Of a stretch of 64,000 bases of DNA, positions 20,238-64,000 are shown one piece after another. How positions within the stretch are numbered: position 1 is the stretch's first letter; each line of letters starts with the position of its first letter. The DNA is taken from assembly GCF_000745975.1 (NCBI RefSeq), contig NZ_JQKJ01000010.1:1-64000 (forward strand), in the 5' to 3' direction. The DNA is from Desulfobacter vibrioformis DSM 8776 (GTDB lineage: Bacteria > Desulfobacterota > Desulfobacteria > Desulfobacterales > Desulfobacteraceae). The notes below the pieces were generated by a model that was given only the letters and a program-made list of their open reading frames with translations, ran no database searches and had not been told where the DNA came from. The position numbers and the translations under genes were made by a program.

Positions 20238-21614
20238 ATGACCTCCATATCGGTACTCAAGCAGCGGGAAAAACAGATCTACCAGAAGGGTAAACAGCCC
20301 TTTGAGATGGAATGTGAAACCAAAAGTCTGGCCGGCGCAGTCAGCCAGCGGGCCTGTGTGTTCTGCGGCTCCAGGGTGGTGCTTTACCCCATTGCCGACG
20401 CCTTGCACCTGATCCACGGTCCCATCGGGTGCGCTTCCTATACCTGGGATATCAGAGGCGCCCTGTCTTCGGGCCCGGAGCTTCACCGGATGAGTTTCTC
20501 AACGGATCTGTCAGAGACCGATATTATCTACGGCGGAGAAAAAAAGTTGAAAAAGGCATTGCTGGAGCTCATTGACAAATATTCACCCAAAGCGGCCTTT
20601 ATCTACTGTACCTGTATCGTGGGCATTATTGGAGATGACGTGGACGCGGTCTGCCGCCAGGTGGAAAAAGAGACCGATATTCCTGTCATCCCTGTCCACT
20701 CCGAAGGATTTAAAGGAACCAAAAAAGACGGGTACAAGGCAGCCTGCGACGCCTTGTTCAGCCTGATTGAAAGAAACAAAGCCCCCCGGGTCACCATCCC
20801 CGATTCCATCAATATCCTGGGCGAATTCAATATTGGCGGAGAGACATGGATCATAAAAAAATACTATGAAGCCATGGGGGTAAAGGTGGTCTCTGTGATC
20901 ACAGGAGACGGCCGGGTGGATGAAGTGATGCAGGCGGGCAATGCCGCCCTGAACGTGGTCCAGTGTTCAGGGTCGGTCACCCACCTGGCAAAGCAGATGC
21001 AGGAAGAGTACGGCATCCCCTATATCCGGGTCTCCTATTTCGGCATTGAAGATACCTCGGATGCCCTGTACCGGGTGGCCGTATTCTTTGATCAGAACCC
21101 CGAAATGCTTAAAAAAACCAAGGAATTGATTAAAAAAGAAGTCCAGGCCATTATCCCCAGCCTTGAAACCATGAAAAAAGACCTTGAAGGCAAAAAAGCA
21201 GCCATATACGTGGGCGGTGCGTTCAAGGCATTCTCCATGATCAAGGCATTAAGAACCCTTGGCATGGAAGTGGTTCTGGCAGGTTCCCAGACCGGCACCC
21301 AGGAAGACTACGAAGTGCTCAGACAGATGTGCAACGAGGGCACCGTGATCCTGGATGACTCAAACCCGCTGGAACTGGCCAAGTATTCCGTTGAAAAAGA
21401 CGCTGACCTGTTTATCGGCGGCGTCAAGGAACGCCCTATTGCCTATAAAATGGGGATTGGGTTTTGTGACCACAACCATGAACGAAAAATTCCCCTGGTG
21501 GGATTTGAAGGCATGGTCAATTTTGCAAAGGAAGTACACGGAACCGTTACAAGCCCGGTATGGGATCTTGTGCCAAGACGACAGACTCCAACCGGAAAGG
21601 AAGGTGTGATATGA
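20238..21614 (+). CDS. nifE: FeMo-cofactor scaffold protein NifE
   Basis: NifE is 458 residues, homologous to NifD, and is the alpha half of the NifEN scaffold on which the NifB product is matured into FeMo-cofactor. Seen: RACVFCGSRVV near residue 35, HGPIGCASYTWD, and CTCIVGIIGDD, the NifE counterparts of the NifD cluster cysteines. It lies 25 bases after nifK. The stop overlaps the nifN start as ATGA, matching the need for equal NifE and NifN. Confidence 0.96.
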   Translation: MTSISVLKQREKQIYQKGKQPFEMECETKSLAGAVSQRACVFCGSRVVLYPIADALHLIHGPIGCASYTWDIRGALSSGPELHRMSFSTDLSETDIIYGGEKKLKKALLELIDKYSPKAAFIYCTCIVGIIGDDVDAVCRQVEKETDIPVIPVHSEGFKGTKKDGYKAACDALFSLIERNKAPRVTIPDSINILGEFNIGGETWIIKKYYEAMGVKVVSVITGDGRVDEVMQAGNAALNVVQCSGSVTHLAKQMQEEYGIPYIRVSYFGIEDTSDALYRVAVFFDQNPEMLKKTKELIKKEVQAIIPSLETMKKDLEGKKAAIYVGGAFKAFSMIKALRTLGMEVVLAGSQTGTQEDYEVLRQMCNEGTVILDDSNPLELAKYSVEKDADLFIGGVKERPIAYKMGIGFCDHNHERKIPLVGFEGMVNFAKEVHGTVTSPVWDLVPRRQTPTGKEGVI

Positions 21615-59687: not shown

Positions 59688-60506
59688 CTATGTTTCCCAG
59701 AGAGACAGCAGTTCGGGTAAAAATTTGCCCCCGGGCCCGTCAAGGACAATCCCCCGGTGGTGCCGGGCGGCAAACTGCCTGAAAGGATTATCTCCCGGGT
59801 TGATGTCCACAATGACCGCTTCAGGATTTCGGGCCACTGCCGTGCCGATCTGCATGGGAAGGTTGGTGGCCCCGGCCGTGCCCACCACCAAAAGAAGGTC
59901 GGTGGATGTAGCCCATGCCATGGCGGATTCGGCTTTGTACCATGTTTCGTTGTAGCATTCGTCAAACCAGAGGACATGGGGCCGGGCAAGGCTGCCGCAC
60001 CTGGGGCAGGTCAGCAGCTTTTTTTCTTCCTCGGTGACCGGCTGGTCTTTTGTTTTGTCTGCCATGCCTTCGGGAAAGTCAAACAGCTTTGGGGTGCATT
60101 CTCCTGCACACCGTAGAAAATTAAGGTTCCCGTGGATCTGGAAGGTTCGTTCAAGGCTGTTGCCGGCCCGCAGATGAAGACCGTCCACATTCTGGGTAAC
60201 CAGACAGAACCTGTCTTTGAAAATCTTTTCCATTTGGACAATGGCATGGTGGCCTGAATTGGGTTCTGCATTCTTACACACGGTCCGCCGGTAAAGGTAC
60301 CAGGCCCAGACCTCCCAAGGGCTTTGGGTAAACATGCTGTGGGTGGCCATCTGTTCAGGCCGGTACTCTTTTGACCCCACAGTCCAATACCCTTCAGGCC
60401 CCCGAAATGTAGGGATTCCGCTTTCAGCTGAAATGCCGGCCCCGGTTAAAACAGTGATCCGTTTGTTGTTGTCCTTAAACGGCTCAAGCAGTCTGGTTGT
60501 GTCCAT
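59688..60506 (-). CDS. Sir2-family NAD-dependent protein deacylase
   Basis: The 272-residue sirtuin has GAGISAESGIPTFRG near residues 22-37 (NAD site) and TQNVDGLH near 104-111. The catalytic His is in QIHGN, and a zinc site is formed by CAGEC and CPRCG. The C-terminal NAD motif reads GTAGATNLP rather than the usual GTS. It should remove acyl groups from protein lysines. GGAGG precedes the ATG. No acetyl-CoA synthetase is adjacent, though an Acs-like gene lies 9 kb away. Confidence 0.92.
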   Translation of the reverse strand: MDTTRLLEPFKDNNKRITVLTGAGISAESGIPTFRGPEGYWTVGSKEYRPEQMATHSMFTQSPWEVWAWYLYRRTVCKNAEPNSGHHAIVQMEKIFKDRFCLVTQNVDGLHLRAGNSLERTFQIHGNLNFLRCAGECTPKLFDFPEGMADKTKDQPVTEEEKKLLTCPRCGSLARPHVLWFDECYNETWYKAESAMAWATSTDLLLVVGTAGATNLPMQIGTAVARNPEAVIVDINPGDNPFRQFAARHHRGIVLDGPGGKFLPELLSLWET

Positions 60507-60643: not shown

Positions 60644-63163
60644 TTAAACATTCTGGGAGAGAATAGAACCGAGTTTCAAGGATAGCTCTCTTATGGAAAA
60701 CGGTTTTTGAATGAAATGAATACCCTGTTTTAAAATGCCCTTCTCAGCTATCACGTTTTCAGTATAACCAGACATGAACAGCACCTTCATCGCAGGCCTC
60801 AAGGGGGAGAGAATCTCGTAAAGCACCTTTCCATTCATCCCTGGCATCACCACATCGGTAAGCATCAGATGGATATCCCCTTTGTGCTTTTCTGAAACGC
60901 TCCGGGCCTCCACGGGTGATCTTGAGGGTAAAACAAAATAACCTAACCTGGTTAATGCCGAGCAGATGAAGATTCTCAGCTTCTCTTCATCTTCCACCAC
61001 CAGAACGGTTCCACCGCCAGCATGAATGGGCTCAATTTCGGTCTGCCGCTCTCCGATCTGCTCTATCTTCCGGGATAGAGGAAAATAGATCTTGAAAACA
61101 GTTCCATGGTCTGGCTCACTGTAAACCCATATGGTACCCCCATGTTGTTTGACAATTCCGTAAACAGTGGATAATCCCAGACCAGTCCCTTTACCGGCTT
61201 CCTTTGTGGTAAAAAAAGGTTCAAAGATCCTCTCTCTGGTCTTTTCATCCATACCTTTGCCTGTATCTGCCACTGACAGCATCAGATAGTTGCCAGGCCT
61301 GACATCAAGCTTAACCGACGCATGATCTTTATCCAGGAAGACGACCCTGGTCTCTATGGTCAGAACGCCCCCATCCGGCATGGCGTCACGGGCATTAACG
61401 GCAAGGTTCAGAAGGATCTGCTCCATCATACCTGAATCTGCATCGATTTGAGGGATGCGCTCTTCCAGCACGGTTTTAATGGTGATGTCCTCTCCGATCA
61501 AGCGCCTGATCATATTGCTGAACCCCTCAATAACAGTATTGAGGCTGAGGGTTGCCATCTCAAGAACCTGCTTGCGGGCAAATGCAAGAAGCTGCCTGGT
61601 CAAACCTTTGGCACGTTCAGCCGCCTGCAGTATCTCCTCTAAATTCTGGTGCAGCTCACTCTCTGACGGGGTATCATCAAGGCTGATCTGTGAATACCCC
61701 ATAACGATTGCAAGCATGTTGTTGAAATCGTGGGCAATCCCTCCTGCCAGGCGGCCCACGGACTCAAGTTTCTGGGACTGCTGAAGCTGTGCTTCCAAAG
61801 AGCGCTTTTCCTGTTCACTCTTCTGTTTTTCCGCTGTTATATCCCTTGCAATGCTGGAAGCCCCGACTATCCTTTCACTCTCATCCCGAATAGGTGAAAC
61901 CTGCAAAGAGACGTCTAATAATTTGCCATCTCTGGCTACCCAGACCGTCTCAACCTGATCCGCAGGCTGGCCAGCCTTTATCCTTGCCAGCATACGCGGC
62001 ATCTCATCAGGTTGGTCCTGTGGTGTGAGAAAGGAGATATGCTTTCCAAGAACCTCACGCTCATCGTAACCGTAGATCCGCCTGGCCCCCCTGTTCCAGC
62101 TGACAATCTCCCCTTCAAGGGTTTTGCCGATAATGGCATCATCAGATGACTCAACGATACGGGCAATCCGGCGTAGAGCCTGTTCAGACCGCAGCCGCGA
62201 CTCCTGGATACGGGCATTGTAGATTGCCATTGAACAGACCTTAGCCAGAGGCAGGGCCAGAGCCAGATAACGCTCTTTATACTCCCGGAAGGTGAGGTCA
62301 TCAATTTCCAGAATACCCAGACAGACCCCTTTGTATCCCATGTATATTGCAAATCCGCGACCTGAATCTGTCCATGCAAACTGTTTTCCAGCACTTAATC
62401 CGGACGCTTCCTGCCCATTACAAAAAGGCGCATAGAATATGCGGCCAGGGGCGAAAAGAAGGTTAAACAGCTCCTCAATATGGCCAATGGCCTCCTTTTC
62501 ACTCTCTGAAGCCATCAGAATATTCATCAGATCAATCAACATCAGGTGATCTGCAAAAAAGTGATCAGGAGGCGGTGACATACCGCTCCGACTTTGGCGT
62601 AGATCCGCCACAAGACGTTCCATAGAGAGTTTTAGCATATCCACGCCTATGGGAATTGATTCGGTTGGCAGGTCAAGATATCTGCCCAGGGCAGATAATT
62701 CGGCATGGCAATTTCCGCCGACAGAGGTGTTTAACAGGGTAAGTTTCTTTGTGGTCTCATGAAAAAATTCTCTGGCTGTCTCCTGATCAAATCCCCACGC
62801 TGCAATCTCTTGCCTCCAGTTCAACAGCCAGCCGGGGGTCATAAGATATGCCCCCTCCGCGATAAGGTGATCGACCATGGCAGAGGGAGCTACCAGGTAA
62901 AAACATAACTTTGGAGCCAACAGAAAAGCTGAACTGCCCCCCTTGCTGATGGCGTCACACCCACCCAGACAGCCACCACCAATGATCGCATCCACCCCTT
63001 CAGTCTCACTGGAGAAGCGGTGTGACAGAGCCTCCCCTCCTTTTTGAAAACTCTGCTGACAGGAAAGATCATAGGTCTCTATCTCCAGGCCAGATAGATC
63101 CCGGGAAGCTGCCACCACAGCTTCCACCTCTTTCAGGAAATACGGGCAACAGAGAAGTCTCAT
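60644..63163 (-). CDS. Hybrid histidine kinase with DUF1638-like input domain, PAS and receiver
   Basis: The protein has 839 residues from the ATG at 63163, chosen because GAGGA lies eight bases before it and it follows the upstream stop by one base. Residues 1-~195 are cysteine-rich (Cys5, 6, 35, 65, 69, 87, 152) and contain [10 protein letters not shown], the DUF1638 style. A GAF-like part (~205-320) and a PAS (~330-445) follow, then a HisKA with His478, an HATPase with DTGKGM and GTGLGLS, and a receiver with Asp770. It is coupled to the URO-D methyltransferase gene, so it may sense corrinoid or methyl-group metabolism. Confidence 0.75.
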
Positions 63164-63164
63164 G

Positions 63165-64000
63165 TCACACATCCTCAGCATTGATCCAGTTCAAAGGGTA
63201 CTGCCCCCAGCGGCGCACCGCGTCAGCAACCGCCAGCAGGATATCCTCATTGACCATCAGGGGGATCTCCCCATGATTGTCCGACAGGACAAATCCGCCT
63301 CCCGGCCCAGCCAGGGCAATGGCCCGCTTCACTTCTGACTCAATATCTTCTGAACGCCAACTTCCCATTGCAAGCGCATTCAGGTCTCCTACAAGCGTAA
63401 GTTTTCCCCTGCACAGCGATTTCAATGCACCAAGATCCTCCTCTGCACTGGCGCTCATGCCAACGAAACCCGCTCTGAAAATTTCATTCACAACCGGCAC
63501 CCCCGTTCCAGATGCCATGTGAATCATCACAGCACCATTTATACGGGAGATAACATTGACAGCTGTCGGTAATCCGTACTGCAATATAAAATCCCGGGAC
63601 ATGATAGCAGGCGAGAACGCAGGGTCAGAATAGAGTATGGATGCCGCCCCGGCCTTGAGCTGTGCGTTAGCCCATGCCACACAGTATTGCGTGTTTATCA
63701 GAAGAAGACGCTCAAGCAGATCCGGCCGTTCATGGATCAGATCAAGATACGGCCCGAATCCCATCTGCATGATGGGCAGAGAGGTGGGTGAGATAATAAC
63801 GCCGGCAATCGGGATATCGTTGCCAACAGCAGCCTTTAGCCGACCTGTTGATTGCAGAACCCCCTGCAACGGCTGGTTACCAGCCACCTCAGGAGGATCA
63901 AGAAGAGAGATCTCTTCTGCCCTTCTGATAATGGGAGCTCCGGCGTTTGGTGGGCCATTGTCACAATAGAGGGCCTCTCCGCCCCAGGCCAGAATCTCCA
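63165..64000 (-). CDS. Uroporphyrinogen-decarboxylase-family (MtaA-like) protein, 5' end outside window
   Basis: The frame is open to the right edge of the window; 277 codons are visible and the start lies beyond. Sequence such as WGGEALYCDNGPPNAGAP, LVGDLNALAMGSW and GGFVLSDNHGEIPLMVNED fits the URO-D fold of corrinoid-dependent methyltransferases (MtaA/MtbA type) better than heme-pathway HemE. These enzymes move methyl groups between corrinoid proteins and thiols. Its stop is one base from the kinase start, so the two are one transcript. The substrate is unknown. Confidence 0.8.
   Translation of the reverse strand, partial: EILAWGGEALYCDNGPPNAGAPIIRRAEEISLLDPPEVAGNQPLQGVLQSTGRLKAAVGNDIPIAGVIISPTSLPIMQMGFGPYLDLIHERPDLLERLLLINTQYCVAWANAQLKAGAASILYSDPAFSPAIMSRDFILQYGLPTAVNVISRINGAVMIHMASGTGVPVVNEIFRAGFVGMSASAEEDLGALKSLCRGKLTLVGDLNALAMGSWRSEDIESEVKRAIALAGPGGGFVLSDNHGEIPLMVNEDILLAVADAVRRWGQYPLNWINAEDV

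Follow-up and report, generated by a model that had tools for sequence, protein, structure and literature searches.

What does a histidine kinase sense when its N-terminal part resembles DUF1638 and the gene preceding it encodes a URO-D-family protein? The question is raised by a minus-strand locus of Desulfobacter vibrioformis DSM 8776, located at the end of the stretch of DNA that was analysed (the window, i.e., the first 64,000 bases of the 164,305-base contig C9) and continuing beyond it. In the order of transcription, a corrinoid-protein gene is followed by the URO-D gene and then by the gene of a hybrid kinase (Table 1). The corrinoid-protein gene had been expected past position 64,000 and is indeed present there, outside the window. 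An MttB-like methyltransferase had also been suggested as something to look for beyond the window, and none was found in the host genome.

Locus organization and kinase domains

The frames of the corrinoid and URO-D proteins overlap by 10 bases. As the original prediction had noted, the URO-D gene directly precedes the kinase gene, with a single base between stop and start (tga-c-atg). The overlap and the one-base gap suggest that the three genes are carried by one transcript. An alternative in-frame ATG at position 63,181, upstream of the kinase start, would add six residues (845-aa frame). The trio is preceded by a gene for a radical-SAM protein (PF04055), RlmN-like by eye. Immediately after the kinase, also on the minus strand, a gene at positions 59688–60506 of the window encodes a protein that looks by eye like a Sir2 deacylase. 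No target of the response was recognized next to the window locus.

Table 1. Positions of the three genes and of the kinase domains (window numbering, continued past the window end on contig C9).
Feature	Position	Strand	Details
Corrinoid-protein gene	C9:64208-64879 (outside window)	-	216 aa (first ATG) or 223 aa (TTG)
URO-D (MtaA/MtbA-like) gene	C9:63165-64217; in-window part 63165..64000	-	350 aa, C-terminal 277 residues in window
Hybrid histidine kinase	60644..63163	-	839 aa, DUF1638-GAF-PAS-HisKA-HATPase_c-REC
DUF1638-type input domain, residues 1-195	62579..63163	-	PF07796; C6, C35, C65, C87 conserved among relatives
GAF-like domain, residues 196-325	62189..62578	-	Foldseek of model; profile matches in relatives
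PAS domain	61838..62170	-	PF00989/PF13426
HisKA dimerisation/phosphoacceptor domain, His478	61568..61756	-	PF00512
HATPase_c catalytic domain	61073..61435	-	PF02518
Receiver domain (REC), Asp770	60680..61006	-	PF00072

The kinase possesses the three elements of a hybrid histidine kinase: the HisKA histidine, the HATPase_c domain and the REC aspartate. His478 and Asp770 occupy the predicted places, as does the YLMTPGW motif at residue 106.

The resemblance of the first 195 or so residues to DUF1638 was confirmed by a profile match and by three cysteines and a tryptophan held in common with other DUF1638 proteins. The PF07796 score was 30.1 bits in the whole-genome search and 28.4 bits with residues 1–330, for a curated cut-off of 27 bits; on the 845-aa frame it fell to 26.7 bits, just below the cut-off. 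The same profile matched 60 of 62 aligned sequences, that of the window included (E 0.01 or better). The assignment, borderline from the window sequence alone, can thus be considered firm when the relatives are taken into account. The cysteine motif C65-x3-C69 had also been pointed out. Both cysteines exist, but C69 is not conserved, and the conserved set is made of C6, C35, C65 and C87, with a cysteine in 60, 59, 62 and 58, respectively, of 65 distinct kinase-type sequences.

The other DUF1638 proteins differ in one position of this set. In the 30 sequences of the phylum search for which loci were available, most of them stand-alone proteins (the exceptions being L154, fused to sensor domains, L140, fused to another domain, and L155 and L159, which belong to signalling cassettes), the pattern was C-H-C-C without a single departure at any of the four positions, and the tryptophan of TPGW was kept in 29. 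The histidine is located one residue after C35, where the kinase branch has its cysteine instead (59 of 65). The window protein therefore departs from the C-H-C-C set, three cysteines being kept (C6, C65 and C87) and the histidine giving way to the neighbouring C35. The comparison indicates that the kinase branch swapped one ligand-like residue, from histidine to cysteine. Judged by these alignments, the kinase-type DUF1638 is a derived branch and not a typical member of the family. It shares the Pfam family, three cysteines and the tryptophan with the stand-alone DUF1638 of Phaeobacter (PMC5764234, accessible part), from which it differs by the fusion to sensor domains and by the cysteine replacing the histidine.

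For the model of residues 1–330, the GAF domain of 5w10 was the top Foldseek match (E 3.4e-3); no match reached E 0.001 or better. A GAF_2 match was obtained in one of the 62 relatives, and the stretch of L154 corresponding to residues 196–325 matched PF01590 (23.7 bits, cut-off 22.4). The DUF1638 domain was modelled twice, with a mean pLDDT of 88.0 and 88.7 (pTM 0.85 for the latter), and neither model had a PDB match at E 0.001 or better. The best candidate fold for the domain alone, a LacI-type regulator, reached a TM score of 0.39 at most, and aspartate transcarbamoylase and Asp/Glu racemase about 0.3 each; no claim is made for any of them. When PDB sequences were searched with the DUF1638 profile, saposins and a designed protein were the sole matches, none better than E 0.013; no solved relative of DUF1638 was found.

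The corrinoid and URO-D partners

The corrinoid protein is composed of a B12-binding_2 and a B12-binding domain and contains the D-x-H-x-x-G motif, as do the corrinoid proteins cognate to methyltransferases. MtbC and pyl_corrinoid models of NCBIfam match it, the latter with 77.3 bits (cut-off 215.3). Among 96 aligned sequences, the histidine of D-x-H-x-x-G was found in 95 and its last glycine in all 96; these rows, like the 101 URO-D rows used below, include contigs present in both genome sets, and the 80 named loci provide the cleaner count. The light-responsive B12 signature includes, according to the accessible part of PMC11796333, GxxW and EH as well as GxxH and GxxxP. When GxxW and EH were scored, GxxW was present (G and W each in 95 of 96 sequences) and EH was absent, its position being occupied by V/I-Y (Y in 93 of 96).

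The URO-D protein missed every NCBIfam cut-off. Its match to an MtaA/MtbA-type model (6.8e-25) was far better than that to hemE (7.7e-4), the equivalog score of the latter being 18.6 bits for a cut-off of 302.95. The original prediction would not have held in a hemE or heme-biosynthesis neighbourhood, and this is not the situation here, given the MtaA/MtbA-type match and the corrinoid gene upstream. The best solved match was the methylcobalamin:CoM methyltransferase 4ay7 (8.4e-16).

The H-x-C motif and the distal cysteine of MtaA/MtbA provide its zinc ligands. In the 101 URO-D rows, the histidine of H-x-C was present in 100 and the cysteine at H+2 in none, this position being an alanine in 98, a serine in two and a glycine in one. 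The distal cysteine was replaced in every row by a histidine inside a D-N-H-G-E motif, of which the H, G and E, at the MtaA ligand position, were invariant (101 of 101). The conservation of this motif is biased in the 80 named loci, as LSDNHGEI was one of the two patterns used in the scan; it was nevertheless found in 21 of the 21 class loci, chosen independently of the pattern. The absence of the zinc cysteines makes a thiol methylation of the MtaA kind unlikely. Thus, of the predicted "URO-D-type methyltransferase", the family stands and the name methyltransferase is not carried over, the MtaA zinc-cysteine site being absent. The protein might bind a ligand without catalysis. The cysteine loss was not retained as proof of a dead enzyme: three of five URO-D proteins lying beside DUF1638 in places devoid of kinase genes also lack H-x-C, all three from one genus (g155). 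It may therefore not be peculiar to the signalling URO-D proteins.

The pair formed by the corrinoid and URO-D proteins belongs to the same two families, paired in the same way, as MtaC/MtbC and the methylcobamide:CoM methyltransferase MtaA/MtbA. It differs by H-x-A in place of H-x-C, by a histidine in place of the second cysteine, by NCBIfam scores far under the cut-offs and by a host genome with no detected MttB.

Recurrence and variants of the cassette

The same fusion recurs widely in other genomes, together with the corrinoid and URO-D genes. Residues 1–323 were searched against 389 genomes of the class, and 43 genomes matched. We examined 21 of these, namely all 17 with E 3e-25 or better (the D. 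vibrioformis genome included) and four GAF-only cases; judging from the match ranges, the remaining 22 were GAF-only or stand-alone DUF1638. In all 21 loci (17 DUF1638-type and four GAF-only), corrinoid and URO-D genes lay beside the sensor, the corrinoid gene of L045 being in another frame. Seventeen other genomes of the same genus were without a match in the class search, so the cassette appears patchy within its own genus.

When named genomes were scanned with the URO-D subfamily, 324 relatives came up, and the loci of the best 80 were retrieved. All 80 had a corrinoid gene upstream of the URO-D gene, visible as an open reading frame in 77 (including one fusion with URO-D) and in another frame in three (L090, L120 and L127). 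In this same sample of the best 80 of 324, the next gene downstream encoded a DUF1638-bearing protein in 59 loci, a GAF-only protein in 18 (L063 being scored from a 67-aa piece at a contig end) and neither in one (L054); in two loci, L055 and L130, the contig came to its end. A DUF1638-bearing or GAF-only third gene was consequently present in 77 of the 78 loci with downstream sequence. The 59 DUF1638 proteins carried a histidine kinase output in 44 cases (by profile), GGDEF in seven (by motif) and no detected output in eight, some of which were cut by contig ends. The organization DUF1638-GAF-HK downstream of URO-D was observed in L092 and L129. A histidine kinase was found in three of the 18 GAF-only proteins. 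The existence of these GAF-only cassettes (18 of 77) indicates that DUF1638 is dispensable in some cases.

The NCBI labels of the best 80 of 324, taken as given, cover 12 phyla, four loci being without a phylum label and one carrying an archaeal label. Most of the records are MAGs, and Desulfonema magnum 4be13 (L064) is a complete genome. The cassette L123 lies in a MAG labelled Methanosarcinaceae. Across the 59 loci with DUF1638, the distances of the three proteins were correlated with one another (r 0.48–0.57, above all 999 shuffles), a result that cannot tell joint evolution apart from common descent. A quick midpoint-rooted tree of 83 URO-D rows would require four changes for the presence of DUF1638 and 13 for the output type, the latter number being inflated by cut proteins. 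The window URO-D formed a deep side branch of this tree with L033 and L034.

Several variants were observed. L166, from the same phylum, is composed of the corrinoid protein, URO-D and a DUF1638-GAF-PAS-PAS protein with an HD-GYP-like end (by eye); its DUF1638 scored 104 bits and is of the C-H-C-C type. The input trio is constant while the outputs vary: histidine kinases were recognized by profile, GGDEF from its motif and the HD-GYP-like end of L166 by eye. In L170 and L172, DUF1638 is a protein of its own, encoded after URO-D and before a PAS-HK-REC kinase. The corrinoid gene can be seen in L170 itself and, at both sites, in the shorter loci L155 and L159. In L173, URO-D is followed by a separate DUF1638, a PAS protein and the contig end. 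Split and fused forms of the same parts are the usual sign of a joint function, and their coexistence here suggests that the parts work together. A further locus, L158/L171, in which DUF1638 lies near a kinase gene, was not retained as a cassette, the fetched stretch containing no URO-D or corrinoid gene. Among the 30 other DUF1638 genes, 21 were located beside corrinoid, URO-D or RACo genes, three of these loci (L154, L155 and L159) being themselves signalling cassettes.

A possible corrinoid-based sensor

No other URO-D, MttB or RACo was found in the host genome, of which the assembly is 95% complete, and MetH was its only other B12-binding_2 protein. To look for recurrent targets, 460 open reading frames flanking the best 80 of 324 loci were clustered, kinase, receiver, PAS and cassette matches being excluded. 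No family was present in more than five loci; the largest, named by eye, were an MCP-like piece (five), a CheW-like piece (four) and an ABC ATPase (four), and enzyme families, also named by eye, reached at most two. A further histidine kinase or receiver gene was present in the fetched flank of 52 of these 80 loci (raw count). The lack of another URO-D, MttB or RACo in the host, the lack of a recurrent enzyme in the flanks and the constant third gene favour signalling over metabolism. From these genomic features, the trio is probably a dedicated corrinoid-based sensor and not an adjunct of methylotrophy.

The MetH-like protein of the host (L163, on G000:C39 at about position 20914) was covered over 709 of about 820 aa, C-terminal end included. 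Its domains are those for homocysteine and pterin and two for B12, with no activation domain reported among them, and the genome is without a detected RACo.

Building on the observed gene order, domain make-up, motif conservation and recurrence, we propose that the three proteins constitute a cytoplasmic sensory unit in which DUF1638 and GAF read the state of the corrinoid protein, as set by a ligand bound to URO-D, and we consider this organization rather likely. The corrinoid protein would hold a cobamide through the histidine of D-x-H-x-x-G. The URO-D protein, of MtaA fold, would dock on it and present or bind a small ligand, which would most likely give a methyl group to the cobalt or take one from it. 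A thiol is improbable as this ligand, because the thiol-activating zinc cysteines are missing. DUF1638 would dock in turn on the corrinoid protein, and its four-cysteine metal or cluster site would read the methylation or redox state. GAF would then hand the signal to PAS and to the kinase (His478, then Asp770); in relatives, GGDEF or HD-GYP would receive it. The model would imply that the proteins form a complex, that cofactor and metal are bound and that methyl chemistry takes place, as well as a polarity of the signal and a set of target genes. The idea that a fold of methyl metabolism became the input of a His-Asp phosphorelay, already present in the original prediction, is supported, and is strengthened by the recurrence of the cassette.

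A more specific version is that sensing operates by enzyme chemistry: URO-D and the corrinoid protein would carry out, or attempt, the transfer of a methyl group with a specific non-thiol methylated compound, the four cysteines of DUF1638 would read the corrinoid state that results, and this readout would be plugged into histidine kinases, diguanylate cyclases or HD-GYP phosphodiesterases in many phyla. We advance this version as a whole tentatively, below an even chance.

The evidence published on DUF1638, which lends support to the proposed sensor, concerns the domain outside kinases. In Phaeobacter, mutants were rescued by methionine, and DUF1638 was linked to B12 reactivation and to the B12-dependent methionine synthase, with no specific proposal in the accessible part of the article (PMC5764234). 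In Ruegeria, the DUF1638 protein was more abundant on methylated N-osmolytes (PMC12478193, accessible part). The tie with B12 reactivation drawn from these two sources, as far as their accessible parts go, would suit a sensor of corrinoid availability or redox state, in which the kinase reports Co(I)/Co(II) or the cobamide loading, URO-D being a non-catalytic scaffold and no external methylated ligand intervening. The four conserved cysteines could hold a redox cluster, and the URO-D protein is devoid of the MtaA cysteine site. The strong conservation of URO-D, including D-N-H-G-E, is easier to reconcile with ligand binding or catalysis than with a bare scaffold, and we regard such a redox sensor as somewhat unlikely. 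It is less plausible still, and in our opinion improbable, that the kinase merely controls a functional catabolic methyltransferase made up of the corrinoid protein and URO-D. URO-D and corrinoid proteins do pair in known methyltransferase systems, and 21 of the 30 other DUF1638 loci lie by corrinoid, URO-D or RACo genes (the three signalling cassettes among them). Against this arrangement, no MttB, RACo or other URO-D was detected in the host, no enzyme family occurred in more than two flanks of the best 80 of 324 loci, and what stays constant as third member is the sensor, with an output domain that varies.

The host family, made up of sulfate reducers, does not seem obviously exposed to light, and a CarH-type light sensor based on B12 is very improbable. 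The replacement of EH by V/I-Y (Y in 93 of 96) and the presence of a URO-D partner also argue against it, whereas GxxW (G 95 and W 95 of 96), which belongs to the light-responsive signature in the accessible part of PMC11796333, speaks in its favour. CarH and other cobalamin-binding photoreceptors similarly use a B12-binding domain in regulation, and GxxW is kept in the corrinoid protein of the cassette; the cassette is distinguished from them by a separate corrinoid protein, the URO-D partner and the lack of the EH motif. With the hybrid histidine kinases having GAF/PAS input, the window kinase shares all the domains of the His-Asp phosphorelay. MsmS-type heme kinases of Methanosarcina occur near methyltransferase genes. 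What sets the window kinase apart from both is an input made of the corrinoid, URO-D and DUF1638 set.

No published description of the corrinoid/URO-D/DUF1638-kinase cassette was found in the open-access literature, by title or start of abstract. The cassette of the proposed corrinoid-reading unit would represent an input module that is new, coupled to outputs that are known. Should methyl transfer turn out to be the trigger, the sensor itself would be of a new kind, with an input built from catalysis and not from simple binding. Widespread sensor kinases and presumed c-di-GMP enzymes would gain a plausible input whose chemistry can be tested, and DUF1638 would be tied to corrinoid proteins as a domain that reads or services them directly, which is relevant to research on B12 enzymes and on two-component systems.

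Two minor observations concern proteins related to the cassette. In L167:5441-10309, a URO-D protein with H-x-C is followed by a 978-aa protein and by a corrinoid protein, and no kinase parts are present; the 978-aa protein starts with DUF1638, and its remainder is hydantoinase-like by eye. The GAF-only proteins of L049:7732-8511, L050:7934-8713 and L052:7517-8296 end in a ICSHCKKIRDDKGYW...CQDC segment with paired cysteines, which is possibly a metal-binding output or adaptor.
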